From contig CM054179.1 of assembly GCA_028829895.1 (NCBI GenBank), forward strand, positions 100,339,875 to 100,403,874: a stretch of DNA of 64,000 nucleotides, in the 5' to 3' direction. The stretch is from Sinotaia quadrata. Lineage: Eukaryota; Mollusca; Gastropoda; Architaenioglossa; Viviparidae. Every line of letters starts with the position of its first letter. Within the stretch, counting starts at the first letter, position 1. The position numbers were made by a program, and so were the translations under genes. Positions 29,975-63,264 of the stretch are shown here, in pieces. The notes beneath the pieces are model-generated. The model ran no database searches and was not told the DNA's origin. It worked only from the letters and a program-made list of their open reading frames with translations.

Positions 29975-30490
29975 CTATCGATCATTACCGCTTGATTTAG
30001 ATCTTGCTGTTATGAAATTAAGAGGTGTAATATTTAATTACAATATCGTTTATTGCCAGCTACTTGGAGACAACGTTAGCTAGCGATTTTCTAAAAGGCT
30101 GGGGATACTGCTAGCAGCCAAGATATTCAAGAAATTCGATGCCTACAAAGGAAAGTCAGTTATAGAGCCAAGCAAAAAGCTATTTTTCTGCATAATGAAA
30201 CAAGGGAGATTATTCTTGTTTTATCTCATTACGTTTATATTAACCTCCCTTGCAGCGTAGTGTTCACGTATATTAGTGACAATGAATTTTATTCTCTTCG
30301 TCATCTTACCAACGTACATCAGGTAAGAGAAGCTTTTTATTAAAACAGAAATGAGTCACTACCGGCCTTATGAAAACAGTTCTTCCATAAAGCTATTCTC
30401 TGCATTCCATAACTTTCTGAAATTTCCTCACCCTTCTATTGCTTCTTCACCTCAAGTACTCTCCTGATCGATCATTATCTAAGGTTCATC
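29975..30490 (+). repeat. 5' duplication block of EF-hand copy A
   Basis: This segment aligns with 53060-53480 (copy C), and its 3' half aligns with 43540-43880 (copy B) and with the complement of 62940-63260 (copy D). Landmarks are ATTGCCAGCTACTTGGAGAC, the inverted-repeat pair before the ATG, the signal-peptide exon and GAGTCA in the start of intron 1. It shows that the family arose by genomic duplication including flanks. Confidence 0.75.
30202..30251 (+). promoter_or_regulatory. Conserved upstream hairpin, copy A
   Basis: AAGGGAGATTA (30202-30212) and TAACCTCCCTT (30241-30251) are inverted repeats pairing at 10 of 11 positions (plus a G-T) around a 28-base loop, 30 bases before the ATG. 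The same arrangement precedes the ATG in all four copies, which argues for function in DNA or in the 5' UTR. Confidence 0.65.
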
Positions 30491-33400
30491 TTATCGTTTT
30501 TGTTTTTCCTTTCTACACGCGGTTTGCTGATTTTACTATGATTTTACAACTGGCAAATAATGCTTTTGTTTTGAATTGACTATCGTTTTTTTTTGTCTTT
30601 AACAATGGATAGTTGTATTTTAATTTTAGTGTTGGTTTTACATTATTTTATTATAATAGTACTACTGTCATATATGGTTTTGTTTTAATTTTAGTATTGT
30701 CTTTATATGACTTTACTACTTTAATTTTACTACCACAACATAGCGGTATTGTCTTTAATACTCTGATAATAAGGTGTTTTTGGTCTTTGTCTTAAAATAG
30801 TGTTACATTAATTTAAAAACTGACTGTAATTAGCTACTCGATTCCTACTCTACTGCGAATTCACAAAGGAAGATTTTTTAAATTTTTTAATTCTATTTAT
30901 TCTTTCTCATTTCGGATCAGTCGAAGCACTGAAATCTTAAAGTTACACTAATCTTTAAAACGTTTTGATAATTACTTAGACATTTGAGTGGAAATATACG
31001 TGGAAGTGTTGATGATGTCTGTAACACAGTAACGGGTAGTAATATAAAGACATTTTTTAAAAAATTGTCATCGTAAAATAATCCAAATAATCTAAATTAA
31101 TTCTAATGATTAAATAAAATTATATTAAAACAACCTAAGAGTAACAGAGGAAATTCATAATAGATTATAATAAATTATATTTTTTTGAAAGTAATTATTC
31201 TAAAATTATTCAACAATAAATTCACACATACACACAAACACACACACACGCAAGCGCGCACAAAATCATATACATATAAACATACACAGTAGTTTGCATG
31301 TAAGAACATATATTTGTATCTATTATTATTTTTGTTGTCTATTTAACTTTTATAATTGGCATGCAACGCTTCTTTTAAATCAAATAACTATCAAATGAAT
31401 ATCCGATCCAGATCAGATTTTTAGACAGTACGAGATCATTGAGTTAAATCTGTCATACGAGTGATTTAGCGTCTCTATCAGATCATTTCCAGCGTAATTA
31501 CGTTGCTAGAGGGCGGGGCTTACGGATAAATGATTAGGTATGTGATAACTTACAACTTTGCCAGCTTGGTTTTCAGTTTCACTGCCACTTAACACGCACG
31601 CTGTCAGTAGCAGAAACTGATTTTAAACGCTGATACAGTCATGAATTAGTAGACAGTTCTGCTATCATGTTACGTTAAGATTTTAGATTCGTAATGGCCA
31701 TGCATTGAAACAAGTGCTTTGTTGTCCTCTCTGAGAGTGAAATGTAAATTGACAAGCACTTGAGCTTGTGTGTTTCACATGTGAGCAAAGATGGAGTTTG
31801 TGTGTTTGACATCTGAGCAAGCTGAAGCTTGTGTTTGACATCTAAGAAGGGACAGAGTGTGGGTGTTTGACATCTTAGCTAGCTTGTGTGTTTGACATCT
31901 GAGCAAGGACAGAGTTTGGATGTTTGACATCTTAGCTAGATTGTGTGTTTGACATATGAACAAGGACATAGTTTGGGTATTTGATATCTTAGCTAGCTTG
32001 TGTGTTTGACATCTGAGCAAGATGGAGCTTGTGTGTTTGACATCTGAGCAGGATGGAGCTTGTGTGTTTGACTTCTGAGCAGAGTGGAGCTTGTATGTTT
32101 GACATATGAGCAAGGACAGAGTTTGGGTGTTTGACAAGAGAACAATGGCTAATGGAACATTCTACAGCAAGCTAGAGGAACACATGAAGAATTGACAATT
32201 GTATTGTGAACAATAAACTTGTGACATTGTTATGAAAGCATGTGAAAGACTATTGTGGAATCATCTAGACAAGGTTATGTACAAACTGTTATCACTTATC
32301 TCTCTATAACTCCATTTCTGTTCTCTGATAAGAATGATCCTGTGAATTATATTTTAGGATATAAGACTATATAGGCATTGAAATTGAACATGGTTTCATG
32401 GAAACATTGATGTCAAATAATCTTTTCATTGTATTTGTTATATGTACATTTGATTGTTTATTTAATAAATTTATTGACCTTCTTATACATATTGATACCT
32501 ATATGTTGGAGATATAGTGGCTGGATGGGGGCTCATTAAATATAGATTAAAGATGGATTTATCTTCTTCTTTGGTAAGATGTTTTCCATCTACGGAAATA
32601 TTGAGTGATAGTAAATGTTTCTCTGTAATGTTGTGGAAGAGAGAAAACGTTTACAGTGCCCACATATTCGACAAGTGAGAGAGACAAGTGGTGTCTTCTG
32701 GAGAATTATTAATGACATTAAATTAAGTTTCTCATCACTTGTAATTAGTTGTGGCTGTTTTAATAATCATAACCAGTAACTAGGGTGACGTTAGTGGTGT
32801 CACAATCTGCAATAAGTTACCCTACCACCTTCTCCTATCCAGTACGCTCAAAATAAATAGATGCATAAATAAAATAAATATTTACAAACTGTTTTCTTTT
32901 ATTTGATACATTTTATAAAATGTTATTTTTCATGCAGCCTTCAGATGCATGGAGCAGATGGGCAAAGGGATAAAAGACAGCTGCAGTGTGACTATGATGG
33001 TCAGTTAACATCATTGCTTGTGGTTTTACAAAGCATTCTCAGTAGTCAGATCAGTGACGTTTTACAAAATATTCTCTGTAGTCAAGTCATAACAGTCACG
33101 TTTTACAAAGAACTTCGAGTAGTCAAGTCATAACAGTCACGTTTTACAAAACGTTCTAGGCAGTCACATCATAACAGTCATTTTACAAAGCATTCTGTGT
33201 AGTCAAATCACAGCAGTCACATTTTAGAAAACGTTCTGGGAAGTCAAGTCACAACAGTCACGTTTTATAAAACATTCTATGTAGCCAAGTCACAACAGTC
33301 ACGTTTTACAAAACATTCTGTATAGCCAAGTCACAACAGTCACGTTTTACGAAACATTCTGTATAGCCAAGTCACAACAGTCACGTTTTACGAAACATTC

Positions 33401-35728
33401 TGTATATTCAAGTCACAACAGCAGTGTAGTACACGTGACTCTCTGAGGGAGGTGAATTGCAGTTGAGGAAGTCTGTATGTATACCTTATATATCTCGAGT
33501 GTCTGCATATCCATGTGTCTAAATTTATATGTGTGTGCGTGTGTATTTGTGTTTGTCTGTCTATGTATCAATGTGTTGGCGTGTCACTATGTTCTAAATG
33601 ACTTTATTTCGATTGCATTCTTCAAAAATTGCTTTCTTTCATTAATCAGGTTCTTGTATTTTTCTTTAGCAGTTTGTTTTTTTATTGCATAACCAAATAC
33701 TTTGTAGAGATTTAGCTTGTCTTTCAACATTATGTCAGCCATTTTTAATACAATGACGTGTACGCGTTTTATTAATTAACCTAGATTTCTAGGTTCAAGG
33801 ACAACTGGAGAAAAGGTCGACATTATTACTGATCGATAGACATTTCTTCTATAGCAACAAGGTCGACAATATTACTGATCGGCAGTCAGCTAGATTTTTA
33901 GGTTCAAGGACAACTGGAGAAAAGGTCGACATTATTACTGATCGATAGAAAAATCTTCTATAGCAACAAGGTCGACAATATTTGCTGATCGGCAGTCAGC
34001 TAGATTTCTAGGTTCAGGGACAACTGGACGGTGGCCAAAAGGTCGACATTTTACTGATCGATAGACAACAGGTCGACATTATTACTGATCGACAGACATT
34101 TCTTCTACAGCAACAAGGTCGACAATATTACTGATCGGCAGTCAGCTAGATTTCTAGGTTCAAGGACAACTGGACGGCAGCCAAAAGGTCGACATTTTAC
34201 TGATCGCTAGACAACAGGTCGACATTATTACTAATTAATAGACATTTCCTCGACGGCCAAAAGGTCGACACTATTACTGATCGGTAGACAACAGGTCGAC
34301 AATGTTATTCATCGATAAACAACTCGGGGACAGCCAACAGTTCGACAGTTTTACTGATCGATAGGCAACTGGGCCGACAACCAATAGATCGACAGCATTA
34401 CTGATCGAAGGGCAACTCTAGACAGACAATAAGTCGACAATATTACTGATCGATAGAAAAGCTTTAGACAGCCAAATTGTCGACAGTATTACTGATCGAT
34501 TTACAACTCGGCAACAATCAAGGCAATAAAGACAGGTACCCATCTAGCAAAATTGCAATGCTGCTCAGTGGCCACCGAACTGTCGAATGTTCTGGTGATA
34601 TCCATTTGTATTTACTATATTTTATTAGAATCTCATTTAACGTTAAAACTGAGTTGAAATTTACTTTTTTGAACCCTAACCATAGCTGAAATCGTATCCT
34701 GACAGAGAAACAAAGACAAACATTTTTAGGCGGGATTTATTTTTCACTGGATAGGATAGTGGGGAATAACATCTACTGGAAATTTTACCAAATGAAAACC
34801 TGTCATGGCAGAAGGCAATGACGATATGGCTGTCACTGAGTTTGTTTACCCACACCAGTAATATTGTTGTCCTTTTGTCTGGTCGCTCCTTTATCTGGTC
34901 GCTCTTTTGTCATGTCACTCTTTGTCTTGTCGCTCTTTTGTCTTGTCGCCCTTTTGTCTTGTCGTTCTTTTGTCTTGTCGCTCCTTTGTCTGGTCGCTCT
35001 TTTGTCTTGTCGCTCTTTTGTCGCTTTGTCTTGTCACTCTTTTGTCTTCTCGCCTTTTTGTCTTGTCGCTCCTTTGTCCGTCATCCAGTTTTCATGTCAT
35101 CCAGTTTTCCTGTCGCTTTTTTTGTCCCGTTGCCCGTATGGTAGGCATTTTAACAGTTCTGTTTAGATTTTTTATCATCATGACATTCAAAGTAAGATCA
35201 TAGCGTCTAAAAGTGTCGCACACTTTTACTGTAAATCTGCTCCTGGAGTAACCAGGTGAACATAAATACTAAAAATGATTTGCCTTCAATCTGCTCAAGT
35301 TCTAACCAATGTTCCCTTTAAGGTGCGCCGCCGCGCAGCTGATTAGTAAACACCGCGAAGCAGTTTCAAACTTTCGCGCACAAGTTTTGATAGCAAGCTC
35401 AAACAACAGCCAGTTCTGTAACGCTTTATCGTTTCTTTTCGAACACGTGCTTGAAGAAGCGTCGGTCACTTTTCTGGATTCCATTCAACCCTTTCCTGCC
35501 ATTCTGCGCGCTTAGCGTTCTTTGAGGTCCTACTCCGTGTAGACTGTAGCATGTCCAAAGAAGGGCCGGACAATGGCTGGTTCCAGCACGTGATATAATC
35601 TGGTGAGATAAAATAACAAAACAATGGTCCCAATTAGAGCAGTTAAAAAGAATTATCAACTTCATCAGATTGTTTATCGAAAGCAGTGAAGTCATCCATC
35701 TTTCGAAGTGATCAGACGGTATGAAAGT

Positions 35729-35759
<31 letters not shown>

Positions 35760-38700
35760 CTCGGGACGAATCCTAACACACTTCCTTCTTTTTTTGAATG
35801 AGGTTTTTTTTTTTATCAATAACCACCGTATGCTAACTGCTAAAGATAAATGTTTATTTTTTTTTTATTTTCTTGTCCACTCTAATCTGTGGTTATGCCG
35901 TCTAGAGTAGAACATATACACCACTTGTGTCCATTGTTGCTAGATGTTTCTGGTGAGAATTGTGACGACACAGACCAGAAGACCTTATGTACATTCAGCT
36001 ATTGGTTACCGTGTCACGTGATGGAAGTAATTGTAGCAGCAGATCATCCTATCACGTGTTTGTTGACATTCCCCATGTACTCTGTTACTATGGTATTTGG
36101 CTTGTCACGTGTAATTTTGTAACAGTTGTCTTATGTAGACTAAATTCGCTGGCAATTTGCAATATTTGTGATAGAACGGCTAAAACTTGTAAGTCAACAA
36201 GCTGTTGTAGGTTGAACAATCGTAATTTACAATTTCATCAGGCTGGCCAGAAGGAACAGTGACGTATTCGTCATTTGTTGATGCAATTTCTTCTTTTTTT
36301 TTCCTATGGGAGACTTTCCTTTTCCTAACCTTTTTCCTGTGGGAGACTCTTCTCTTTCCTAACCTTTTTCCTGTGGGAGACTCTTCTCTTTCCTAATCTT
36401 TTTCCTGTGGGAGATTCTTCTCTTTCCTAACTTTTTTTTTTCTGGAGCGTATTTCACAACTACGCTTGTTAAAATTAATATAATGTTCTAATTTTTTTTG
36501 TCTGTTTCTTATTAACAGGATCCAAGAATATTAACCGTGACGAATTCATCTGGTGTTTTTGGTCACAAAACATTTTATTCAAGCGAACGTTTTATAGAAC
36601 CTATTCCCGTTACGACCGTAATAGGGACGGTAACCTGAGTCAACAGGAGCTCGGTCAGCTGTTTGATGAACTGGATACGAATAGTAAGTATGTTTGTTTG
36701 TATGTACATAATTCTGGTGTGTGCGTATCGTGTGGCATATGCGCATGCAATCCTATTTATAGAAATGTGATTTGGACAGGGGAGATCACTTGAAACAGCA
36801 TTGATTAAATAGGCTAGTGATGCAAAAAGGCGGAGAAACTAGCGAGCGACCGACATTGTGGCGGTCCCTTAAGGCAGATAAATAATAAATATAAATTAAT
36901 AAATACATTTTATTTTAATTAAAAGAAAATGAACCCGCTTTTCACAGCAAGTGTTTTCATTTAACGTTTCTCTTAGGAATTGAAAATATTTGTTCAAATA
37001 TTTTTTTTCAATGTTAATGAAAAATAAAGATAGACGTGACATATTAAATATAGGTCACTGTGAAATGGGGTCATCCGCTTTAGTGAATGAAAGATATTTG
37101 TTAATTTTACTGATTCCGCTAATCTATTTTTAACTTTTTACCCCAAAGATGGGTTTCACCGAGGGAGCACACTGCTTGGTTTCGCACCTTTTGAAACAAA
37201 TCTCAGTTTTAGCATACTTTAATTGCATTAGCTTTCTGTCTGAAATATGATAGTGTTTTATAAACAAAATCAATGTGTGTTTGTTTTTCTTGTAAACATG
37301 TTTAATCGTTTTTCTTTCGATTTGTATAGAAGACCGCAAACTTACCGACGATGAAAGAAACAAAGTCAAGCCACCCGTGAGTTATTTATAGTTTCATAGT
37401 AATCAGTAGAAGTGGAAAATGAGATTTTTTTCTTGTTTCATTCGTTCACCATAATGGTAGGAGTCGGAATATTACACTGGCGTTCAGGCGGAACACGTGT
37501 ATACACCCTAATAATATTACGTGGAGTCGGAATATTACACTGGCGTTCAGGCGGAACACGTGTATACACCCTAATAATATTATGTGGAGTCGGAATATTA
37601 CACTGGCATTTAGGAGGAACAAGTGTGTACACCATAATAATATTACGTGGAGTCGGAATATTACACTGGCATTCAGGAGGAACACGTGTATACACCTTAT
37701 GGTGCAGAGTAGTGCATGCAACTTTCCTGTAGTAAGCAAGTTAGAAACGCATTGGCAAAGTTTATCACATTTATGATGTGATAGCATGCAGGATGGTTCA
37801 CAGAGCACATCAAATCTAACGCTGAACTAGAAATATCCAGTACATATCATCTGCTAGTGAGATTAATTAAAATGTTCCATTTCAGTTAAATCCGTTGACA
37901 GGTAGCCTCCGTGTCAATGTGGCCAGTTAGTGCGTTATATAATGTCAAGAGTTTCTCAGTCTTTTAGAATGTAATTATAGACTTCGAGATTTTTTAAAAC
38001 CGTCACGCATATCTTGGTAGTTGAAGTTTTATTTCGTATGCCTTACACCCACTGCCTGGCTTTGGAATGCAGAATTGCGCCCCGATTGTCAATTTGGAAA
38101 TTTGAAGTAAAATGGAGCGGTAATATAAATCTTCTTAGTAATTTTATTTTATCGAAGTCGTTGAAATCTTGCAAGCAGTACTCGCAAGGTAAGGGAAGTC
38201 ACTACTTAGTAATAGTTCGAATAATCTTTTGCTTAACCTATACTGCGAATAATACTTCTCTTCACTCTATTCTTTAGATGATTGGAACTCGGGAAGTTAA
38301 TTCGGGTAGTTAATTGTCAACAATGAATAAGAATAGTTATTTGACATAAATAATTTACATTCCATCGTGTTTAGACAACCGAGACCCGGGTAGTTACTGT
38401 CATTGAACGTAAACATTAAGAACAACACTGCCCTTAAGTAATTTACAAGCTTTTGTTGTAGTTGACGGAAACTTGAAAGCTTAGAATTGATAAAATACAA
38501 CTTGTAATAAATCGCGGTGGACATTCATACCTATGACACATGGTCCAGCTCATCTATCTACAAATTGATATGACATGAGCATTCTCGTCATCGTCACCAT
38601 TGTCATCTTTATCCATCGCTAGCATTTTTTATGACATCATCATTATCGACTTTATCGTCATTTTCTTCATCTTCACTGTCATCATCAGCATATATCCAAC

Positions 38701-39450
38701 CATCATATATCATATTCTCTGCATGTCAGTCATTTTGAATCATAATACAAAAATACAGCCAGTCAACAGTCAGTCTACATCACTCATAATTACTTACAAT
38801 CATAAGTCATAAGCATTCATGCGCTCTCAGTTAATAAAACAAATATGATAAGCAGTAAATCAGATAATTAATTATATCAGTCAGGTATAATCAGTTATAT
38901 TAGTCAAGTGTAATCAGTAATCACTTCTCAATCCAGTTTTCATCATTCATCAATGGATCAACAGAATATATTCTTCAGTTTCATTTTATTGTTTATTATT
39001 TTTTATTTTTAATATTTTTATTATTATTATCATTTCGTGTATTCCTTCTTGTTCCTTTCCTTTCCTTTCCTTCCTTCCTTCCTTCCTTCCTTTCTTTCTT
39101 CCTTCCTTCCTATAGTATCAGTAGCAGTAGCAGTGGCAGTACTAGTAGTAGCTGCAGCAGTCTTTTTGAATTGTCTGTTCAGTTTTGTTTTTTAACAATA
39201 TTGTACTTACGATTCCTAACTTTGTTATGGACGTTTGCATGCAGGCTTAGCATCTCAACACGGGTTTTGTTTTTATTATGCGTTTCGTTTCGTTTCTTTC
39301 TTTACTTACTTTCTACAGAAATCATTTTATTAATTTAAAGTAGTAATATATTATACTGTTTTTATTTTGAATTTTACCTTAAAATAATGAACTAAAGCAA
39401 AAAATAAAACTTGTCTAAAATAATAGTAATCTTTTCCATTTCAGATATAA
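30282..39450 (+). CDS. Secreted EF-hand protein, copy A (about 106 aa)
   Basis: Coding exons: 30282-30322 (signal, MNFILFVILPTYI), 32938-32999, 36519-36683, 37330-37376 and 39445-39450 (Ile then stop). Intron phases are 2, 1, 1, 0, as in copy B. Loop 1 spans exons 2-3 (DYDG|SKNINRDE): position 6 is Lys instead of Gly, so binding is doubtful. Loop 2 is canonical (DRNRDGNLSQQE). Loop 3 spans exons 3-4 (DTN|KDRKLTDDE) with Arg at position 6. Calcium binding follows from EF-hand knowledge; secretion is inferred from the hydrophobic N-terminus, which is short and has no clear cleavage site. The exon 2 donor is GTCAGT. Alternative last exons in the right phase are 37885-37929 and 37981-38277. The 39445 choice is preferred because its acceptor, downstream sequence and AATAAA are conserved in copy B. 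Confidence 0.68.
31195..31262. repeat. Short CA-rich tract
   Basis: CACACA and CAAACACA repeats in intron 1 of copy A, flanked by very AT-rich sequence. Confidence 0.7.
31765..32135. repeat. Minisatellite, about 31 bp, intron 1 of copy A
   Basis: Units contain GAGCTTGTGTGTTTGACATC and TGAGCAAGGACAGAGTTTGG, with alternate TTAGCTAGCTTG variants. An open minus-strand frame across it is a repeat artefact. Confidence 0.9.
32200..32780 (+). repeat. Dispersed repeat R2, copy 2
   Basis: Resembles 5326-5700, sharing TTTAATAAATTTATT and TCACTTGTAATTAGTT, in intron 1 of copy A just upstream of its exon 2. Non-coding. Confidence 0.45.
33005..33425. repeat. 41-bp minisatellite after exon 2 of copy A
   Basis: About ten units contain CAAGTCACAACAGTCACGTT followed by TTACAAAACATTCTGTATAG. 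The array begins almost at the splice donor at 33000. Confidence 0.93.
33781..34505. repeat. Higher-order minisatellite with GTCGAC sites
   Basis: A roughly 109-bp super-unit starting CTAGATTTCTAGGTTCAAGG recurs at 33781, 33889, 33999 and about 34146. It is built of shorter AGGTCGACATTATTACTGAT units carrying GTCGAC and GATCGATAGAC. The distal part decays into single units. Confidence 0.9.
34510..34865. other. Intronic sequence, nothing recognised
   Basis: Unique sequence in intron 2 of copy A between two arrays. Confidence 0.35.
34868..35125. repeat. TTGTCTTGTCGCTC-type minisatellite
   Basis: About fifteen imperfect units of 15-21 bases (CTTTTGTCTTGTCGCTC). All three plus frames are open and read Ser/Leu/Phe-rich peptides, a repeat artefact. 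Confidence 0.9.
35130..35884. other. Intron 2 of copy A, no exon seen
   Basis: Contains a GC-richer patch (35325-35520) with an open frame on each strand but no splice support, and a short (GT)n tract at 35729-35757. Confidence 0.35.
35885..36260 (+). repeat. Intron 2 block shared by copies A and B
   Basis: Aligns with the region 46190-46830 of copy B: GAGTAGAACATATACACCAC and TTGTGTCC, then GGAAGTAATTGTAGCAGCAGA, CTCTGTTACTATGGT and CACGTGTAATTTTGTA all have counterparts in order. In both copies the block lies just upstream of the EF-hand exon 3, which confirms paralogy at the DNA level. Confidence 0.7.
36290..36432. repeat. Tandem repeat, about 36-38 bp, before exon 3 of copy A
   Basis: Four units contain TTTTTCCTGTGGGAGACTCT then TCTCTTTCCTAACC. 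The array ends about 90 bases before the exon 3 acceptor. Confidence 0.85.
37450..37710. repeat. 63-bp minisatellite after exon 4 of copy A
   Basis: Four units contain GTCGGAATATTACACTGGCG and GGAACACGTGTATACACC. The unit is a multiple of three, so frames stay open on both strands; I regard them as artefacts. Confidence 0.92.
39055..39112. repeat. (TTCC)n microsatellite
   Basis: TTCC and TTTCTT units in the last intron of copy A. Confidence 0.9.
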
Positions 39451-39800
39451 ACCTAATTTCAAGAAAACTGATATCCTATTGGTTAATGACGTGATCGGAA
39501 ATGAGCAATGTTTAATGCTCAAGTGGCTGTTGTTTATCAATAAAGATATACATGATCTTTCTTATTCTGTTGACATATAATGTTTCAGTTCTCTTGTTTG
39601 GTTTGCATTTTAGGATATTTTTGAAATGTTAACCGTTAGCGTTGTAAACAAACGACATTTAGAGAAAAATAAAAAAAATAGATGAAAGACGTGTATCCAT
39701 TTATCTGAGTTTGATGAACATGAAGATGGAACGAATATGTATTAGTTTTGTGAGAATGTTATGGAAAGCAAAAGTAAAAAACCTCAGTTACAGGTGTGAA
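39115..39800 (+). repeat. 3' duplication block of copy A with poly(A) signal
   Basis: Aligns with 50735-51345 of copy B. Shared in order are GTAGCAGTAG, AATATTGTACTTAC, CCTAACTTTG, the polypyrimidine acceptor, TACATGAT with TTATTCTGTT, GAGAAAAATAAA and TGAACATGAAGATGGAACGA-like sequence. AATAAA at 39668-39673 is the likely poly(A) signal of copy A. Confidence 0.72.
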
Positions 39801-39879
39801 CAATGCCTAAGTATGGTTACTTTCGTCTTTAAAAATTTAGTGTATCCTGTAAAGGGCAAAGGTGCAGTAGATCCTGGAA

Positions 39880-40640
39880 TTAACATAGCAAAGGTAGAGT
39901 GTATCCTGTAATTAACATGGCAAAGGTAGAGTGTATCCTGTAATTAACATAGCAAAGGTAGAGTGTATCCTGTAATTAACAGGGCAAGGATGTAACGTTT
40001 CCTTTAATTAAGAGCAAAGGTACAGAGTATCTTGTAATTAGAACGGCAAAGGTGAAGTGTGTTCTGTAATTAACAGGGCAAATGTATAGTGTATTCTGTA
40101 ATTAACAGGGCAAAGATTTAGTGTATCCTGTAATTAACAGGGCAAATGTATAGTGTATTCTGTAATTAACAGAGCAGATGTCTAGTGTATCATGTAATTA
40201 ATAGGGCAAAGATGTAGTGTGTCATGTAATTAATAGGGCAAAGTTGTAGTGTATCATGTAATTAATAGGGCAAAGTTGTAGTGTATCATGTAATTAATAG
40301 GGCAAAGTTATAGTGTATCATGTAATTAATAGGGCAAAGTTGTAGTGTGTCATGTAATTAATAGGGCAAAGTTGTAGTGTATCATGTAATTAATAGGGCA
40401 AAGTTGTAGTGTATCATGTAATTAATAGGGCAAAGATGTAGTGTCTCATGTAATTAATAGGGCAAAGTTGTAGTGTATCATGTAATTAATAGGGCAAAGT
40501 TGTAGTGTGTACTATAATTAACAGAGCAAAGGTGCAGTGTATCCTGAGCTAACAGGACAATGGTGTAGTCACTGTAGTGTATCCTGTAATTAAGAGGACA
40601 AAAGTGTAGTGTATCTACACTACATAGATGTAGTGTTTCC
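39880..40640. repeat. 32-bp minisatellite downstream of copy A
   Basis: About twenty-three units contain GTAGTGTATCATGTAATTAA and TAGGGCAAAGTT. Inner units are nearly identical and outer ones have AACAGGGCAAAG variants. Confidence 0.94.
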
Positions 40641-40671
40641 TGTATTGCAGAGGAGAAATATATAGTGAATG

Positions 40672-40774: not shown

Positions 40775-42705
40775 TCTATCCTTACTGTCTTAGTGTTTAT
40801 GCTGTAGTCAACGAAAGTCGAGCAAGGTCATTGGTGTCACCGGCAATGATAACCGATGACTCTTGCATTTAGTCAAATATTTGTAAAATGCAAAATGACA
40901 GGCCTACACGACAGTTATCTGTCATCCCACATAATGTTTTCATTGTTTCATGAGTCAAGTGTTGATCTCTACTAACACTTTTATAGTTCACATTTTAATA
41001 AAAGCCACAAATGTGTTGCATGACTGTAATTCGTTAGCAAGCTGTTAAGGGAGATAATTTGTGATGAACTATTGCCGGCAGACATCTTCGAAGAACACTT
41101 TTATATTTGTATATTTATTTTCAAGAAAAGGATATAAATATTTAATATTGCGAATATTTAGATAGTTATATAGATATAGAAATACGCCTAAAATATTTGA
41201 AATTTCTTAAAACTTAAAGAAGAAATAATAGATTAACATAAAAGTTATATTTTCAAAGACATTTTTTAATATGTATCATTTTATTATTAGCATTGAAAAT
41301 TTTTTTTTTAATTTGTTTATATTCATATAGCTCTTAATTTCAATTTTTAACACTCTATCTTCACAAGATAGGGTTATCGCTTTACCACAAACAAATATAT
41401 AAACCACGAGAATTTGGCGTCTTTTGCACATTTCAAAACTTCTATCTAATAAGTATTTAAATGCAATAGTACTATGCTAAAGATATCCAGTATAGGATAA
41501 TTATAATTTTATACTTTTTCTCATGTTCTTGATTGTAGTTTCGGGGTGGGTGGGTGGGTTGTCGTGCTGTTTTCCTATCACAAACACTTACTGAGCTACT
41601 ATGTCAACATGTTAGAACTTAACGGGTGCTTTTAAAAGCTGAATGGTTAATTTATTGATTTTTACATAATCTTGACTTTCGGCGTTCGTTGTTTTTTACG
41701 AGCGACGGCAACTGATTCCAACATTAATGAAATCTAAAACTTTCAATTCAATTGCTGCCCTGTTCATGTTAGAAATGTAAAGCTATTATCACCATTGCAT
41801 TGAGATTCAGCCCTTGTGTCAGTGTACGTCATTTTGTCAATCTGAATTGAAGAGCGGTAAGTCTGTAAGTTCCATTGATCTCATTTTCTAGTAACATTGA
41901 ATAAACTTCAATTTTACTATGAATCAAGTTGAGAAATTTAAACCTAAGATTCTGGTTTCTGATCTGAATGGAGATTCGAAAGGCGTCTTAGAGTAGATAG
42001 TTAACTGGCATTATTGTTATGTTATCACTGGCAGTAAATTGATGTATATTGTTTAGACTATCTTTTATACACTTGCTTGAATCAGGAATCTGTTTGCTAT
42101 TAAGTGAAAACTGCTGTCATTGAGTGAAAAAGGTATGAGAGAGTGTGTAACAAATATTGCCTGTAATGTTCAGAGCTATGACAGAATCACCGAATAATGT
42201 GAATATGCATGACTCGAACACTAGGAAACCGTGTGTTTTTAATGCATTGTTGACTATTAGTCTGTTCACTATCTTGTACATCTTAATTTGGACAATGGAT
42301 TTACATTGGGAAAGAAGGCAAGGTTTATAATAAATTAATTTAAAGAAAAGTAAAATCTTTTTATGACATCTCTTAAAAACACGTGACAGATTTAATTGAT
42401 TTTGCATAAATTAAACGTGACATGGTACTTCAGAAATGGTTTCAGAAATGTCACAGGGAGAGCTCTTTAACTGATTTGCCAGCAAAGTTATTAAATAATT
42501 TTTCTAGCATGTCCTGGTGGGGTGGGTGGGTGAGGACATAATTTGACAGCAGTCAATAAAAGCTACTTCTGAGATGAGGTTTTACACCTATTTCTAATGT
42601 TAACTCAATACACTGAGAGATACTTAACACATACAGAATACTTTGTTGAGATGGGGAGGGTATGAGAGAGAGGGAGTGCGGGGTAAATGCTTGGGAGACA
42701 GTAAT
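40775..42705. other. Intergenic region between copies A and B, no gene seen
   Basis: AT-rich. An AAGGGAGATAA motif lies near 41047. The minus-strand open frame at 42117-42407 lacks plausible splicing and any family motif. Confidence 0.4.
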
Positions 42706-42709
42706 ACAG

Positions 42710-43210
42710 AAAGAATATTGATATATGAAAAGGAAGCATAATAAAGTAAGAAGATTGATATATGAAAAGGAAGCATAATAAAGTAAGAAGATTGATGTAT
42801 GAAAAGGAAGCATAATAAAGTAAGAAGATTGATGTATGAAAAGGAAGCATAATAAAGTAAGAAGATTGGTGTATGAAAAGGAAGCATAATAAAGAAAGAA
42901 GATTGATGTATGAAAAGGAAGCATAATAAAGAAAGAAGATTGATGTATGAAAAGGAAGCATAATAAAGAAAGAAGATTGATGTATGAAAAGGAAGCATAA
43001 TAAAGAAAGAAGATTGATGTATGAAAAGGAAGCATAATAAAGAAAGAAGATTGATGTATGAAAAGGAAGCATAATAAAGTAAGAAGATTGATGTATGAAA
43101 TGAGAGACAGCAATGCGAAAAGAAGATTGATGTATGAAAAGCATAATAAAGAAAGAAGATTGCTGTATGAAATGGGAGACAATAATGCAGAAAGAAGATT
43201 GATGCATGAA
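42710..43210. repeat. 37-bp minisatellite upstream of copy B
   Basis: About thirteen units contain AAGAAGATTGATGTATGAAA then AGGAAGCATAATAAAGT. Three shifted minus-strand frames remain open because the unit lacks stops in those frames; not a gene. Confidence 0.94.
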
Positions 43211-43556: not shown

Positions 43557-43610
43557 GGGAGATTATTCTCTGTTTTTTTCTTGCATTAAAACTTTTCATT
43601 AACCTCCCTT
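43557..43610 (+). promoter_or_regulatory. Conserved upstream hairpin, copy B
   Basis: GGGAGATTA (43557-43565) pairs with TAACCTCCC in 43600-43610 around a 34-base loop, 24 bases before the ATG of copy B. Confidence 0.65.
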
Positions 43611-51481: not shown

Positions 51482-51562
51482 TGTATAATGTATCATAGGA
51501 AACATTCTTTCTCTGTTTTTCTTCTCTTTTCTCATTTGTATAGCGTATCATAAAAAGGCAAT

Positions 51563-52530
51563 TTGCAGCAATGTCAGAACTATAGAGCGATAAATCTTAT
51601 ATGCCACCCGAGCAAAGTCATGCTAAAGAGCATATTAAACAGACTGAAGCTGCAGGCAGAGGAAATCATAGCTGAAGAAGAGGCAGGCTTCAGACCAGGG
51701 CGAAGCATAACTGATCAGATTTTTAATCTGAGACTGCTATGTGAAAAGTACCTTCAGCACCAACAAGACCTTTATCATGTCTGTAGATTTTAAGAAGGCG
51801 TTTGACATGGTTTGGCATGCATCCCTTTGGTCCACTATGAAGCTGTACAACATCAATGCCAACCTCATCAAAGTCATAGAGAGCTTTTACAGCAAGGCCA
51901 CCAGCGCAATCCGCTTCAACAGCCAATTAGGAGATTGGTTCAGGACAACAGTGGGAGTCAGACAAAACTGTTTACTTTTTCCTATTCTCTTCAACACCTT
52001 CCTTGAAATAATCATGACTGATGTTCTGGAAGACCATGAAGGAACTGTCAGTATTGGAGGCAGAACAATAACGAACTTGCTCTTAGCTGATGACATCGAT
52101 GGCCTTGGAGGAAATGAGGAGGAGCTAGTTCAGTTGGTGGAAAAACTGGACAGGACAGCTACTGCTTTTTTGGAAATCAGTGCAGAGAAGACCAAATTGA
52201 TGACAAACAACACCAGTGTGTCATTGGCAATGACATCATGATTGGTGATCAGAAATTGGAAATAGTTATAAATTCAAGTAATTAGGAGCCATTGTACAGA
52301 CGAGGGATCAAAACCTGAAATATTGTCCAGAATTGTGATGACAATTGTAGCAATGGCAAGGTTTAAGACAGTTTGGAAGACAGAAACATCTCAGTCAGCT
52401 CAAAGATCAGACTGATGCACTCCTTGGTTGTATCTGTATTTTTATATGCCTGTGAAACCATCGCAGTGGATCTCGAAAGGAGGATACAAGCTATTGAAAT
52501 GAGATGCAGAAACAGGTCTTAAAATATTGA
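51563..52530 (+). pseudogene. Non-LTR retrotransposon reverse transcriptase fragment
   Basis: The conceptual product runs through reverse-transcriptase motifs in order: NYRAINL; AGFRPGRSITDQIF; after a one-base frameshift near 51780, VDFKKAFDMVWH; GDWFRTTVGVRQ; and LLLADDIDGLGG, where the ADD catalytic triplet is encoded at 52086-52094. It then degenerates past a stop at 52239, with recognisable pieces such as DEGSKPEILSRIV in other frames. The endonuclease and 3' end are missing. I assign it to the LINE class but not to a clade. It is dead, and sits between EF-hand copies B and C. Confidence 0.88.
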
Positions 52531-53059: not shown

Positions 53060-53480
53060 ATAGTTGACGTCATGAATAATTCGATCATTGCCGTTTGAAT
53101 TAGTTTTTATTGTTTTTCCTCATAATATTATGAAATCACAGGAGTATTAATCTATTTAGAATATAATTTATTGCCAACTACTTGGAGACTGCGTTAGATA
53201 ATGATTTACTGACCGTCAAGAGACATTGTTAGCAGCAAAGATATTAAGAAATCTGATGGCAAGGGAGATTATTCATGTTTTATTGCTTTAATTTTATTTC
53301 TAATAGCCTCCCTTGCACCATATTTTGATGACCCCCCCTTTGACTCTCCGTCCTCCTGCCAATGTTCGTCAGGTGAGCGAAGCTGTCATAGAAGTGAGTC
53401 ATCATCGGCTTTATGAAAGCACTTCTTTCGTAAAGTTGTTCCTTTCATTTTTACAGCTTTCTGACATTTCTCACTCTGAA
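53060..53480 (+). pseudogene. EF-hand copy C, 5' fragment with broken signal exon
   Basis: DNA homologous to the 5' block of copy A covers promoter, hairpin, exon 1 and the start of intron 1. The exon equivalent (ATG 53328 to donor at 53373) is 45 bases, so it ends in phase 0 rather than phase 2. A C run has changed the frame: the product reads MTPPLTLRPPANVRQ and lacks a hydrophobic core. I found no exon 2 or EF-hand loop downstream before 58 kb on this strand. This looks like an abortive or decayed duplicate. Confidence 0.65.
53261..53314 (+). promoter_or_regulatory. Conserved upstream hairpin, copy C
   Basis: AAGGGAGATTA (53261-53271) and TAGCCTCCCTT (53304-53314) flank a 32-base loop, 13 bases before the ATG position. 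One stem base differs from the other copies. Confidence 0.55.
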
Positions 53481-53585
53481 CTTTCGATTACTTCTTCACA
53501 GGAAGTACCCCCCCCCCCGGTCAATAATTATGTGAATACTTTATATTTTCGTTTTTCTTTTATGCAGGCGGTTGTAGTCGTGTAA

Positions 53586-54032
53586 ATGCTTACTGAATAC
53601 TGGATAAAATGTATTTGGAACGATGGTAGGGGAGTTATGGATACATGCAAAAGCTGCAAGTCTACTGTTCCAAGTGAGGTAATTATCGATTCATACAGAC
53701 AGGAATGTGACTACCAAATGCGTGTAGCAAACAGACAGGAATGTGCCTACCAAATGTGTGTAGCATACAAACAGGACTGTGGCTACCAAATGCGTGTATC
53801 ATGCAAACAGGAATGTGGCTACCAAATGTGTTTAGTATACAGACAAGAATGTGGCTACCAAATGCGTGTAGCATACAGACAAGAATGTGGCTATCAAATG
53901 CGTGTAGGATACAGACAGGAGTGTGACTACCAAATGCGTGTAGCATACAGACAAGAATGTGGCTATCAAATGCGTGTAGGATACAGACAGGAGTGTGACT
54001 ACCAAATGTGTTTAGTATACAGACAAGAATGA
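53586..54032 (+). other. Open frame over a 36-bp repeat (12-residue periodicity)
   Basis: The frame stays open for about 148 codons, of which some 110 are a repeat of RQECGYQMRVAY type with two-letter variation. It starts with ATG at 53586, where a unique region (GVMDTCKSCKSTVPSEV) precedes the repeat. The opposite strand is also open over most of it, and the unit is a multiple of three, so openness alone is weak evidence. I rate a true cysteine-rich repeat protein as unlikely but worth recording. Confidence 0.2.
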
Positions 54033-54137
54033 GGCTACCAAATGCGTGTAGCATACAGACAGGAATGTGGCTACCAAATGCGTAGCATACAGACAGGAAT
54101 GTGGCTACCAAATGCGTGTAGTATACAGACAGAATGA
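53690..54137. repeat. 36-bp minisatellite near copy C
   Basis: About twelve and a half units contain AGACAGGAATGTGGCTACCA and AATGCGTGTAGCATAC. One unit near 54073 is shortened, and a TGA ends the plus frame at 54030-54032. Confidence 0.95.
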
Positions 54138-54149
54138 ACAAACATTTTT

Positions 54150-55358
54150 AAAAAGTCACTCCCATGCAGCAGTGCACAGCGTTTTCCATCCATCTCTCAA
54201 CTGGTCTTTTCGACTCACCCTAATTTGACCCAGTTCTTGCTGAAATCTGTAGGCTGTCATCAAATCTTCTAGACTGGCTACCATCTGCACATCATACACT
54301 AAGACGTCATTGCCCATCTCCAGTCAATAGCTCTACTAGATACAGTTCTAGAATCTCCATTAAGAGGAAATATTGCGTTGAATAAGGGCAAACGTATACG
54401 GAATATAGATCCTTGTGAAGGCTGACCTGTCACCTGTCACCTGCCACCTGTCACCTGTCAGCCTGTGGTAAGCTGAGTGAAACACACGCCTGATTAACTA
54501 TTTTATTAATTATAGTGTTATTTATATAGACTAAAGCATTGATGACAGTTTTTTACGATGTACTGTATCCTTCGATTCATCCTTCTTGAAATGGAAACAA
54601 AATATTTCGCATGATACACTTCATGTTAGAGAGATGGCAGAAGAAGAGGAACAAAGCTAATTAACATACTCAGGCATACTCACACACGTTGATGTTGGTT
54701 GGTTTGTTTCTCCCAGCATTCTCAACAATCTCTGTTAAACATTCGGTCAGTCTTCTCGAATGAAATCTCAAATAAATGGACAGTCGTCTGTCATCTTATT
54801 TTATTTTTTTTATTTTATTTCCTCCAAGCAACATTTTAAATTACAACACTAACGATAACCACTTAGGAAACGCAGAGTTACGAGAACTTAACAGTTTACG
54901 TGAATAGAATAATAAAAACATCGTGTAACCCTCACTGATAGACATCAAAGTGTCATTAGTCAGTGGTCACTTCCGGTTATATCTTTAACTGATAGGCTGT
55001 CAATTTTCTTGAACTTAAGGTGATTTCTGAAAGGAAATAGTAATTGCAATTTTAAACAAGCTTCACTTTTTTTTAAAAAAAGCCTATTTTAACAAAATTA
55101 AACATGTGAAATCACTTTACTGCTTTAAAAAGCAAAGGAATATCTTCATAAAATAAGAACTAACTAAAACCGACAAAAAAAAACTCACACAAGGATATCT
55201 TCATAAAATAAGAACTAACTAAAACCGACAAAAAAAAAACTCAGACAAGAAATTCGTTTGAGGTGATATAAGTGAGTTTGACAAAGTTGGGTGTTTAAAG
55301 AACAATATTATACAAAATAAATCGAAGCAGGAAAATATATACTACTTACTACTACTGT

Positions 55359-55394
<36 letters not shown>

Positions 55395-56080: not shown

Positions 56081-56089
56081 AAAGGCTAC

Positions 56090-57004
56090 CACAACTACTA
56101 CTACTAACAATAATTAATGTGATGATGAAGTTGCAGAATACAAGATGTTGGTTTACTGATTGATGAATGAATGTTTGCTTGAAGATAACTGCTGATTGAT
56201 TATGATAGTTTATGTTAATTATAATTGATTATCTGATTTTATTCATAACTGAGGTATATGTTTGCTATATTAACTGATAATGGCTGATTATTTATAATTG
56301 TTGATTGCACATAATTATTGAAATTTTGATTGATTGTTGACTGATGGACTTGAATGATTGTGATTTGTTGTTGATTGACGAATCTTGCATAATTATAACT
56401 TTTATTCCGACTGAGAATGATTGACTGACAATGGAGGAGGATGGTTATAATATACCCTAGTGATGAACGTGAAGAAGAAGATAATGATGATGAGGACAGT
56501 GATAATGTTGAAGATATGCGCAATACGATTATATGCGAGAACGTGCGTTGGACCCAATACCAAACAGTGAAGATCATCACTCCTATTTCAAGTTCTATTT
56601 CATCATTTTTACCTAACTCTATGGATTTCAGACATCAAAATAATTATTGATTACAATAAGTAAGGATCTTTAAATAACTCACATGTCTCCATCCTATCCA
56701 GACCACTATAAAAACCGTCACCTATATAGATGGAAAGAAAGCAATATATACGTCAACATGAAGGGGGAATGCATATATATATATATATTGTTTGAAACAA
56801 GTGTGATTTGTTTCAAAAGGCAATCAAATTAATATAAATACAGTCACTAAATACTGAGAAATGCTACTTATAGTCTCGACTAAATCTCTTACACACATAA
56901 AATGTCTCATTAAAATGATAATTTTTCTTTGAATTACCCATTGCACATTAGGAAACTAGCTTTAACCAATTTTAATTTTAGTACATTCTTCCACTTCCCT
57001 CAAG
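56090..57004. other. No gene seen
   Basis: TGATTGATT-rich low-complexity DNA (56150-56430) and a GAAGAAGA/GATGATGA stretch (56460-56515) that yields an acidic open frame, 56441-56650, which I do not accept. Confidence 0.4.
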
Positions 57005-57345: not shown

Positions 57346-57349
57346 TCCA

Positions 57350-58490: not shown

Positions 58491-58751
58491 GTAACTACCC
58501 TTTCAACATACGCTTATCGGCTCGGCTCATGATACTAGTCTGATGCCCGTGAAAAACCGGAAGATATATTAAAGTGATATTTCCATTTATTTTATCTACA
58601 GATGCATGGGGCACGAACATTTCACTCCGATGTCCGTGTTCTAATCCGGGCAAAATTAAATTGTCACTAGATGTGGGTGACCCTGACTCGCAGATACTAC
58701 CGGATAAGCACATACCATTTTGTTGTACCGACTGAAACGAAATAGGCGTAC

Positions 58752-61700
58752 CATTTTTATCCACAGTATTAAACAGAGCGTCGAGGTCCTCCGTCCTCAG
58801 CCGACCAATTCCATCAAAATTAGAGTGAGAAACTTGAAGCGCTTCTGTCTGAAGTGAGACGGGCAATGTCAAAATGCACGGAAAGAATTCCTCACGTGAG
58901 ATTTTCCTGTCTTCTGCACATTAAGAAACAGCCAGAAATTTGAAGGAGTGCCCAAGGTCGGGTCCACCTCGACAATTTAACAGTTTATATAACAATTAAA
59001 TCTAGAAATTAGGATAGGCAAATTTACTCCTCCACAGTTATATTCTCAAAATTAAGCATTCAGTAAGAATTCAGCTCTACCATGATTGACATGATACTGA
59101 TGTGTACAATTACATGGTTGCCTCCCTTGGCCAGAATTATCACAACAAAACTATGCCCGATGTTACATTCCAGTACTTGTTTAAAGACCCTGTCTCAGCA
59201 TGAGGACTTAAAGATTGTTAATTTTTAATATTCCACTTATGCTGATGACAGACTGGTTGCCAGACTCACCCTTCTGTCTCCCTTAATTAATTATCTCAGT
59301 TTAGATATTAACTACAGTGACAGATGAATATGTGTAATATTGCGTGAACTAGGCATATTATCTGAATAACAACAAATTATGCATACAAACATTCACATTT
59401 GACTCAGCCCCCAACCCAGTTTTCTTTCAGTCCTCCTTTTTTCACTAGTAATTAGTCAACTTCTGTTATTATGATAACAAAAATAAATTAATATTTAACT
59501 GTTTAACAAAATAGTAAATCCATACATCAATACATTCAATACAAAGGTCATTAGAACTACCTATTCACTTTTTACAAGTTTGTATGGCTCGTAACACAAA
59601 TTTCTGATCTCAGAGTCTATCAGATGCCCACATATCTTTCATCAGCAGCAGCAGTTATGGCAGTTCACGCCCCAATAATTCGTCGTTGGTCGTCCGGCCC
59701 ACTGTCCGCATAACTCGTCACACATCGTGGCATCAGGTCCTCAGCTCAATAGCCATAGAACTTCATATCCACAGAATGTCAATCTGGAATTTCCAACTGA
59801 ACTCCAATGAAGAGGTGGGACCAAAATTAGTACCAAATGTAAATCAGGAACAAAAACCCGTTCTGAAACAATAGCAATCATTTCCATGAGTGATAACCTT
59901 ATAGTTTGTCAATCTGTACGTTGTGGCAACAGACAATTAGGTGTCCTATTACAATTGACCTCAATTCATATTTTTACAAGGAAGATAAAATATGGTTTAC
60001 AATTAAATAGAAATATGTCACACACGGGTGGATTATAATTATCATATTAGCAAAAATGTTCCAAACGCACACAGCATTTTATAATTGTCATTTTAGCCAT
60101 TTCACAATATCATTATACATTTCAATAATCATTAGAATTATGGGGCACATGTTAACCCGGTCACTCTATTCTCTGGCCATACGTCAGAAGAAATAAAATA
60201 TGCAAAATCACACTACAACATTCTTAATAAAATATAGTTAACAAATATTAAGAAATCAATGTGTTACCTTGTCTGAATATTTAGTGGGCTTACCTTTGAT
60301 TCACAGAATATGTGCAACTCTTATAAGTCTAAATAAAATATTCCAATTCACTTTCATGGTATTTATGCACATCTAAGGATTAATGGTGGGAATTCGGTCA
60401 GTCAAGCATCGGGCTTGAACAACAATCTCCCCTCTCCACTATTGTTCAAGTGTATTGCATAATTGACTTATAGTAATCAGTATTTTCGTTTTAATATTTT
60501 GGGGACTTTCCTTAATTGCACGTAATTCCCATAGAGCGTGATGCATACAATTACATAATTTGGCTGCATTCACTGGTGCAAAGGAATGTATAACACAATA
60601 GATGAAGACATCAAAAGAACTTCAAATGAAAAATAATTTTTAGATAGGTCAGGCATAATTTGCCCTTGACCCATAACACCCTTCTAAATAAAAAATACTT
60701 CTGGTGATGCTGAAGCCAGGATTTTGTGACAGATGATATAACACAGATTGGAATAAAAAGGATTTTGCTATATCTTAGATATAATCCACTACTCAGCAAA
60801 TAGAAAAAGAAACATAACAGTCCAAACATAAGGATTTCGGACTACAGAAAGAGAAATTTGTTGACTCCTTTAAAATTTGGAAACTTGCACACAGATGGTC
60901 ACTCCAGCTGAAGGTGGGTGATGTTAGTCAGTTATATGTATGTTAAATATTTTGACCGGGAGAAATGGCTTTTCTTTTGTTTTACAAATAACTGTTTCAC
61001 TGCTTCAAATGACCTAGTTTTCACGAACTATTTTTGTCTCACAAAATGACGTCACAGCCATTGCCCAACCCTTCTTTTGATACACGCTGCTCGGAGTCGG
61101 ATCTCAAAGTGGAAAGTGCAGAGTGGCAGGAAAGGGTTGTATGGAACCCAGAAAAATGAATGACTTCATTCCAAGCATGCGAGCAGAGAACGAGTCTGCT
61201 CATTCAAGCTTATATGAGTGGATTGTGGGCAAAGAGTTACTCACTCAAGCTTACGTAAGCGGGCTGTACACAACGCATTACTCACTCAAGCTTACGTAAG
61301 CGGGCTGTAGACTATGCGTTACTCACTCAAGCTTAGGCAAGCGGGTGTAGACAACGCGTTACTCACACAAGCTTACATAAGCAGACTGTAGACATGTTAT
61401 TCACTCAAGCTTACATAAGGGGAGTTTAGACACAGCGCTAAACATGTCCGTTCAGCTGTTTACTGCAAGAGAAGATTTAAAGTAAATTTGTGCGAAGCTT
61501 ATAAACGCCTTTGGTTTTGACACTGAATATTATAATTATTAAAGTGTAACTAGCACTGTCAAACGCTTTTGGGTGACAATGACAATAAATTTTTATAAGA
61601 CTAGATGGAACTCCTTTGTGACGGTGTAGAAGAAAACGAAATGGTTCAAAAAAGAACGCGCGTGTTAGAGCAGGTAAAACATTTGTTTACCCACCCACCC

Positions 61701-63160
61701 CAAGTTAAATCATACCGACATCGCAATGGCATGCTGTCACACCGACAAACTGAAACAGAATGGCAGCCACATAAATACACACCGACAGACAGATGCATGC
61801 TTGCAATGACTCAAAGACACACCCACCTGCAGACAATTCGAGACACTGTGACACAAACACACAGAATGCACGTATACAGACTTTCTAAATAGCTATTCAA
61901 TTGTCTCTGACAGCCATGTGCACTATTGTTCTGAGAAGATTTTGTAAAAACTAAAATGTTATCTAATTATGTTCACTTACTATTCAGGTCACAATGTACT
62001 CCCAAGTGAACTGCAATTCGTTGTATATTCCGCACTGCTTCATGTTTATGGTGGCTAAATAAATATTAAAATATAAGAAAAATATATCTACAGAAAAGCA
62101 AATTATTATTACTTTTATTAATTTTAATATTTTCTGTGTGAGGCCGTTAGACAGGAACACGAAAGGTTTATCAAATTTAACGAGGCGGTGTAAAAACTAA
62201 ATGCAATTAATCTCAGATATTTTCGCTTTTTATTATTTTGCACTTAGCTAGATTTAATAACCCTTAGATCTCTCAATATCAGCCTTGATAATATATATAT
62301 ATATATATGTATATGTATATTCAATCTTTGATTCTCAACAGTATATACGTAGTATATGAAATATAACTTTTAATTAGTTTGTTCGTATCGCTATTTTGTT
62401 TCATTGTTTAAATAGTTTATAATTGCTAGTAATATCTACTGGGGATTAGAATAGCCATAGTTGTGTAAGAACTCAAAATTGCCGTAAGTTGTGTAGGAGT
62501 TCGGAATAGCATAGGCTTGTAGGCGATCGGAATAGCCGTAAGTTGTGTAAGAACTCAGAGTAGCCTAAAGTTGTGTAGGAGATCGGAATAGCCTAAGTTG
62601 TGTAAGAGATCGGAATAGCCGCAAGTTGTGTAAGATGCTGGAATGGATGTAAGTTGTGTAATAGACTGGAATAGGCATAAGTTTTATAACTAAGAGTGAT
62701 ATGCCCCACAATTGAAACAAACCATAAACTGTTTCTATAATTTGCTAGGGCTACAAAATTGACTTCCTTCAATGTCAACAAGCAAACAAAAGTTATATAC
62801 TTGACAACTTGACAATATCATCGGAATGTATTTGTAACATGGAGGCACACTATTCACTAAAACCCATATTTATTATATTAAGTACGCATGTTATTATTAA
62901 ACACTTATAAAACAATAACCGCCTGTAGAAATGAGAAACGAGAAAAATAAAGATGCGCGTTAGATAAAGATTTCTCTAGGAGACATTTAGGCAATTGAAG
63001 TGTCAGAGTGAGTGAAAGCTAACGGCTGCAAAGAATAAATGTGTAAAAAGAACTGTTTTCATCTGACCAGTGATGACTACTATTGTAATGATACCTTCAC
63101 TCACCTGAGACACGTTGGTAGGATTACGATGAAGAGAATGAAGAACGTCATAACGGCCAT
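58752..63160 (-). CDS. Secreted EF-hand protein, copy D (inverted, 3' end unresolved)
   Basis: Minus-strand exons: 63160-63105 (MAVMTFFILFIVILPTCL, signal peptide), 62054-61981 and 58913-58752, with intron phases 2 and 1 as in copies A and B. Exon 2 starts SHHKHEAV against SHQKSIDS in copy B. Loop 1 spans exons 2-3 (DLN|KDRKISREE), with Arg at position 6. Loop 2 is NFDGIGRLRTED, with non-standard residues at positions 1, 5 and 12. A third loop begins VDKNG at the exon 3 end, where copies A and B splice in phase 1. Here the donor is GTACGC and no good exon 4 was found. The frame also reads through for about 85 codons to 58495, so exon 3 may be terminal with a novel tail, or the copy is decaying. 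The intron 1 flank is closest to copy B. Confidence 0.62.
58950..59045 (-). repeat. Dispersed repeat R1, short fragment
   Basis: The reverse complement reads GGAGTAAATTTGCCTATCCT, then TTAATTGTTATATAA and CCCGACCTTGGGCACTCCTT, matching the R1 start. It lies in intron 2 of copy D. Confidence 0.65.
59060..61190. other. Intron 2 of copy D, nothing recognised
   Basis: AT-rich unique sequence. Open frames at 59686-59874 (+) and 60611-60829 (-) lack splice support or known motifs. Confidence 0.4.
61195..61435. repeat. Minisatellite, about 53 bp, with AAGCTT sites
   Basis: Five units contain ACTCACTCAAGCTTACGTAA and GCGGGCTGTAGACAACG. It lies in intron 2 of copy D. Confidence 0.92.
62445..62690. 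repeat. 28-33 bp minisatellite, intron 1 of copy D
   Basis: About eight units contain GGAATAGCCGTAAGTTGTGT and AAGAGATC, with frequent single-base variants. Confidence 0.9.
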
Positions 63161-63191
63161 AATAAACGCGAATACTATGCACAAAAAATAA

Positions 63192-63244
63192 AAGGGAGGT
63201 TAATGGAGAGCTGTACTGCAAGAACTCGGAGCATAATCTCCCTT
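63192..63244 (-). promoter_or_regulatory. Conserved upstream hairpin, copy D
   Basis: On the minus strand AAGGGAGATTA (63244-63234) and TAACCTCCCTT (63202-63192) flank a 31-base loop, 31 bases before the ATG at 63160. Same order, stem and loop size as in copies A to C. Confidence 0.65.
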
Positions 63245-63264
63245 CATTCTGCATCAATTCCGCG

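Follow-up and report, generated by a model that had tools for sequence, protein, structure and literature searches.

A 64,000-nucleotide (nt) stretch of the genome of the gastropod Sinotaia quadrata (contig C3, positions 100339875-100403874), which we analysed as a whole and refer to as the window, probably holds, at one locus, a gene family of which three members are intact (A, B and D) and one is a relic (C); to judge from the sequence, this family would have arisen by whole-segment duplication with one inversion, and would encode small secreted EF-hand proteins. A preliminary description, made from the letters of the window alone, had proposed that small secreted EF-hand genes form a local family here, and our analysis supports that proposal through the homology of the segments, the preservation of splice sites and reading frame, and the EF-hand match of the joined products. 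In the scheme that we favor, whole gene segments would have been duplicated, one of them inverted (D) and one reduced to a relic (C), and each intact gene would specify a signal-like N-terminus followed by a calcium-binding protein that acts extracellularly, perhaps in shell matrix, mucus or gland fluid.

Comparison of the window with itself by blastn, after masking of tandem repeats, revealed four paralogous segments within positions 29,992-63,249, with A, B and C on the plus strand and D on the minus strand, which bears out the orientation given in the preliminary description. The homologous neighbourhoods begin at 29,992 in A and at 43,542 in B, span 53,109-53,600 in C, and run downwards from 63,249 in D. 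The blocks that connect A with B, A with D, B with D and A with C are mainly colinear; the larger ones are approximately 60-76% identical, and the best E value is 2e-50 (B-D). A and B share the blocks 30204-30537/43557-43914, 36021-36176/46667-46828, 36926-37015/47373-47462 and 39182-39817/50778-51379, together with one short weak block; B and D share 43557-43899/63242-62918, 45214-45445/62290-62046, 50551-50795/56317-56054 and 50993-51386/55073-54657, together with shorter ones; and A and C share 29992-30524/53110-53573. Several further blocks link A and D, and the B-C and C-D pairs are homologous across the exon-1 region. We gave no weight to a weak A-D block at 37250-37313 (E 0.006), which is out of order, or to the B-D block 43902-43983/59029-58943, which is an interspersed repeat. 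As the block homology among the copies includes their 3' regions, we conclude that whole genes were copied, in agreement with the earlier claim that the duplicated flanks reflect the copying of whole genomic segments.

Genes A, B and D could each be modelled with five exons, giving products of 106, 136 and 110 amino acids, respectively. In gene A (plus strand), a signal exon of 41 nt (30282-30322), whose region is 64-66% identical to those of B, C and D, is followed by exon 2 (62 nt, 32938-32999), which carries the first part of loop 1 and whose donor, gtcagttaacat, matches the B donor gtaagttaacat; by exon 3 (165 nt, 36519-36683), which contributes to the Pfam EF-hand match of the joined product; by exon 4 (47 nt, 37330-37376), which holds the remainder of loop 3; and by the final coding bases and stop (39445-39450), after which comes a 3' untranslated region (UTR) with AATAAA at 39539 and 39668. 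Gene B (plus strand) consists of a signal exon of 59 nt (43635-43693), exon 2 (110 nt, 45437-45546), exon 3 (165 nt, 47078-47242), exon 4 (41 nt, 47717-47757) and a terminal coding exon that runs to the stop (51041-51076) and into a 3' UTR with AATAAA at 51237. Gene D (minus strand) comprises a signal exon of 56 nt (63105-63160), exon 2 (74 nt, 61981-62054), exon 3 (162 nt, 58752-58913), exon 4 (39 nt, 56683-56721) and the final two coding bases (55025-55026), with the stop split across the junction as T|AA, then a 3' UTR with AATAAA at 54819 and 54805. The intron that precedes exon 2 of B aligns to D, and both introns that flank exon 2 of D align to B. The 3' regions of all three genes are homologous to one another, and each contains AATAAA.

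Exon 4 of gene D, at 56721-56683, had been missed by automatic searches because phase 0 was assumed at the end of the exon, and it was revealed by reading the strand; its donor, gtgagttattta, is identical to that of gene A over 12 bases. Given this exon, the locus holds three complete copies, A, B and D, and not the two of the preliminary description. The frame of D exon 3 also stays open for about 85 codons past the donor (58498-58751), and therefore a read-through form would be open as well.

The splice structure of the three genes is held in common through the first three introns. AG/GT dinucleotides are present at 12/12 junctions, and the cumulative phases after exons 1, 2 and 3 are 2, 1 and 1 in A, B and D alike. 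In all three genes intron 2 splits loop 1 and intron 3 splits loop 3, each after the first nucleotide of loop codon 4, and the lengths of exon 2 (62, 110 and 74 nt) and of exon 3 (165, 165 and 162 nt) differ by multiples of three. Of the architecture that A, B and D had been said to share, the phases of introns 1-3, the introns inside the loops and the sizes of exon 3 are thus upheld; the phase of intron 4 is not.

The predicted products contain EF-hand loops. Gene A carries DYDGSKNINRDE, DRNRDGNLSQQE and DTNKDRKLTDDE; gene B carries DYNKDGKISRDE and DDDGDGFLTDLD, with no middle loop; and gene D carries DLNKDRKISREE and DKNGDGFYSGLD, with a degenerate middle loop. Counting D, N or S as a ligand at loop positions 1, 3 and 5, and E or D at position 12, we found these positions filled in 24/24 cells of loops 1 and 3 of the three genes; the middle loop has its full set of ligands in A, is degenerate in D and is missing from B. 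The glycine at position 6 is kept in 3/6 of loops 1 and 3. When the joined products were searched with EF-hand profiles, as the preliminary description had proposed, all three exceeded the cut-off of Pfam EF-hand_1 (PF00036; 25.4 bits), with 35.2 bits for A, 28.6 for B and 27.3 for D. The same description had warned that searches with single exons may miss these genes, and this proved correct: D exon 3 alone falls under the cut-offs of its three listed EF-hand families, whereas the joined D product passes EF-hand_1, and tblastn with B gives E values no better than 6.1 for exon 3 of D and 36 for that of A.

The N-termini of the predicted proteins are hydrophobic, with maximal Kyte-Doolittle values over nine residues of 2.76 (A), 3.90 (B) and 3.74 (D). 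Assuming a cut after the serine at the exon-1 junction, the mature proteins would comprise 92 (A), 116 (B) and 91 (D) amino acids with two cysteines each; what follows the signal-like N-terminus amounts to 10-13.5 kDa with two to three EF loops. A, B and D may well be expressed, secreted and able to bind calcium.

The exons for the mature proteins have diverged strongly. For exon 3, codon alignments gave protein identities of 20-26% and DNA identities of 40-51%, compared with 27% (standard deviation 3.7) for random ungapped pairs, and the exon-1 regions are 58-71% identical between copies. The statement that only the gene architecture reveals the kinship was too strong, since the DNA of the signal-exon region, the introns and the 3' regions reveals it also. 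The mature exons have lost most of their similarity while frame and ligand residues are kept, and so either loose constraint or diversification would account for them.

Copy C is a truncated copy in which the signal-exon region alone is present (53109-53600, plus strand; about 490 nt around exon 1), with 62% identity to A over 545 aligned columns. Its exon-1 ATG opens a frame without a hydrophobic core (maximal nine-residue Kyte-Doolittle value, -0.36), and blastn found no homologues of the later exons in the DNA that separates it from a 36-nt minisatellite and from the 3' end of D. C and D thus meet tail to tail. The description of one broken and one inverted copy is accordingly accurate: the signal exon of C is ruined, and D lies on the minus strand. 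A quartet analysis of the exon-1 region grouped (A,C) and (B,D) with a bootstrap value of 100, and informative sites were divided 22 versus 5 and 3. The order of the copies would follow from duplication of an A-B pair, with one half of the second pair inverted and the other truncated; no intergenic DNA shared by such a pair showed in the blastn comparison of the window.

Several observations weigh against a family of intact, secreted EF-hand genes. The phase after exon 4 is 0 in A, 0 in B and 1 in D, so that intron 4 has no common phase, and the lengths of exon 4 (47, 41 and 39 nt) are incongruent modulo 3. EF-hand_7, a model of the paired hand, gave 23.6 (A), 29.4 (B) and 26.8 bits (D), with its cut-off of 30 reached by none, and joined D passes EF-hand_1 alone among the EF-hand models. 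The signal-like stretch of A is short and is the weakest of the three (2.76). Neither the ligand count nor the half-loop control described below is blind, because the exons were partly chosen for their EF-loop look. No relatives outside this genome were found: B as a query returned one protein, at E 0.93, and a profile of A, B and D (with D lacking exon 4) returned 359 proteins at E<=10, where the organisms named among the best 120 of the 359 are bacterial or, once, nematode. Finally, the sequence does not fix the role of these proteins, for which a function as extracellular calcium binders in shell matrix, mucus or gland fluid would be a candidate.

We considered whether the models are EF-like words that were selected by chance from AT-rich intergenic DNA. 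The exons were initially spotted by eye, and D exon 3 alone lies below the Pfam cut-offs, which speaks for such a reading. Against it stands a control in which exon candidates of 150-183 nt with acceptor and donor sites were collected from both strands of 220.8 kb, by criteria that were taken from the models and are thus post hoc. Among 3,722 candidates, 256 were open and exactly 3 contained both half-loops; these are exon 3 of A, B and D, all within the homologous segments. The joined products pass EF-hand_1, and the homology of the segments is independent of any coding reading, so that chance is already contradicted and is extremely improbable. A different proposal is that all copies are drifting pseudogenes whose open frames are leftovers. 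Copy C is plainly broken, intron 4 of D is out of phase with those of A and B, and in 6/9 pair comparisons the window-wise z-scores place exons 2-4 under both flanks, all of which would fit decay. However, three coding sequences of 321-411 nt are still open at such divergence, with AG/GT at every one of the 12 junctions, lengths of exons 2 and 3 congruent modulo 3, and a complete set of ligand cells (24/24); we thus regard general decay as improbable.

A third account, diversifying selection, holds that the mature exons outpace the introns in the manner of conotoxin genes because their products have to meet targets in prey, partners, pathogens or gametes. In the B-D comparison of exon 2, 42/110 nt align, versus 227/237 nt before the exon (74% identity) and 134/154 nt after it (70%), and the B-D signal exon is conserved, with DNA identity of 82-84% and proportions of synonymous (pS) and nonsynonymous (pN) differences of 0.33 and 0.14. 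The low protein identity of exon 3 (just 20-26%) and the 6/9 z-score comparisons in which exons 2-4 fall under both flanks point the same way. On the other hand, the exon lies above both flanks in 2/9 comparisons (exon 3 of B-D, z 12.7; exon 4 of B-D, z 1.2) and 1/9 is mixed, and these z-scores are biased where exons are short or flanks are repeat-masked. In some intron windows A and B align as poorly as in exon 3 or worse, and in a lenient global alignment exon 3 of A and B is 62% identical over 108 aligned nt, somewhat under the adjoining introns (66-71%), a difference for which we claim no significant excess. With pS at 0.56-0.75 and pN at 0.46-0.56, synonymous sites are saturated, and pN is greater than pS only in the B-D core (0.69 vs 0.62). 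This saturation led us to discard the ratio of nonsynonymous to synonymous substitution rates (Ka/Ks), and positive selection is hence no more than possible. Taken together, these data leave diversifying selection as a tentative explanation that we would not bet on. A more specific version, in which ligand codons and frame are held and selection actively drives the rest of the mature protein apart between paralogues, at a pace above that of its own introns, would make A, B and D a family for calcium-dependent recognition or secretion, similar to toxins or fertilisation proteins and without cysteine scaffolds; this we deem rather unlikely.

The EF-hand loops of A, B and D invite comparison with calmodulin and troponin C, and a profile of the family (A2) matches calmodulin-type PDB chains (best E 4.2e-8; 273 sequences at E<=0.01, judged on the 60 listed). 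Unlike those proteins, A, B and D have a signal-like N-terminus, fewer loops, and introns inside the loops. The standard spacing of EF loops is about 36 residues; loops 2 and 3 of gene A are just 20 residues apart, which again differs from calmodulin and troponin C. Conotoxin superfamilies, according to the excerpted text of PMC3862624, have conserved introns and a conserved signal exon together with a highly diverse mature exon that contains trinucleotide indels. A, B and D resemble that pattern as excerpted, with conserved signal exon and introns, diverged mature exons and exceptions in some windows; they differ in having EF loops instead of a cysteine framework (two cysteines per mature protein) and in numbering four copies, one of them broken. 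In the pearl oyster, the excerpt of PMC3120837 describes five EF-hand genes, expressed in the mantle, whose identity to PFMG1 is 14-62% and of which three have signal peptides, and a reference title in the same paper terms EFCBP an extracellular EF-hand protein. Like A, B and D, whose signal peptides are putative, these oyster genes (PFMG1, EFCBP and the expressed sequence tag genes 000262, 000493 and 002138) combine EF hands, signal peptides and strongly diverged relatives, a likeness drawn from their description in that excerpt, not from sequence. Neither PFMG1 nor EFCBP was named among the matches listed in protein searches with B and with the A/B/D profile, none of which was aimed at them. 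EF-hand proteins are also mentioned, in the available parts of the respective papers, in snail trail mucus (PMC11940790) and in a venom set from salivary gland (PMC11359391). A literature search, judged on titles and the openings of abstracts, returned no report that we recognised as this family. Most likely, A, B and D form a small gene family for secreted calcium-binding proteins, which may be compared with the pearl oyster mantle proteins that have signal peptides and EF hands; they would be candidate members of that type.

The preliminary description had suggested a look for further copies beyond position 64000, and we found none in the 77.6 kb that follow the window. No fifth copy was found in the 79 kb before it either (220.8 kb in total), and the sole outside match in this region, 62 AT-rich nt at window coordinate 106336 (E 0.006), was taken for chance. 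In genome-wide DNA searches over the 984 Mb assembly (26 contigs, with C1-C4 at 142-156 Mb each), the exon-1 regions of B and A found only A, B and D, and that of C found only C. Copies as distant as A and C (62%) are thus missed genome-wide, and the number counted across the genome is a minimum. Queries with the B and D proteins returned their own exons and one match on contig C1, at E 0.18 (D). A genome search with PF00036 gave 131 matches among the 150 scored of 367 candidates, and none is listed in the window, in keeping with loops that are split by introns. We considered an EF-hand cluster on contig C4 (12.42-12.59 Mb; 13 matches on one strand) as a sister family and rejected it as part of the same family: its loop lies whole in one exon and looks calmodulin-like. 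This cluster was judged on five neighbourhoods and two 9.9 kb stretches, and a crude scan of the stretches read found no signal exon; its exons look calmodulin/troponin-like and are arranged in tandem. Searches for relatives outside the genome also gave five bacterial loci and no viral locus. We take the outside matches for probable background of the EF-hand superfamily and did not treat them as relatives.

The family belongs to a kind already known; its frame is conserved and its product diverged, in clear contrast, and it illustrates well, though not for the first time, how duplicates diverge. The present result is a good piece of annotation that concerns an ordinary kind of gene: segment homology together with splice phases recovered a family that homology searches with single exons miss. 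Should the rapid change in the mature exons be adaptive, three paralogues and one relic at one locus would offer a compact natural test of which parts of an EF-hand protein can vary outside the cell.

The window also contains several repeated elements. The interspersed repeat is present at 4279-4665, 43902-43999, 50157-50546 and 58943-59036, and one copy stops roughly 30 nt short of D exon 3, on its upstream side. Minisatellites with units of approximately 32-46 nt, some of whose copies are about 95% alike, occupy introns and gaps at 39789-40650, 42628-43219, 44127-44820, 48012-48527 and 53620-54159. Downstream of gene B, a reverse-transcriptase fragment lies in two frames (51554-52238), and 5,400 proteins are related to it at E<=1e-10; its longer frame matches RVT_1 with 63 bits, and its shorter frame, at 25.1 bits, is under the cut-off. 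All four copies carry inverted GGGAGATTAT-like and CCTCCCTT words, about 40-50 nt apart and about 20-80 nt 5' of the first ATG or its relic (30204-30251, 43557-43610, 53263-53314, and on the minus strand near 63242-63190). The related word AAGGGAGATAA occurs 12 times in the 220.8 kb, compared with 0.2 expected from base composition.

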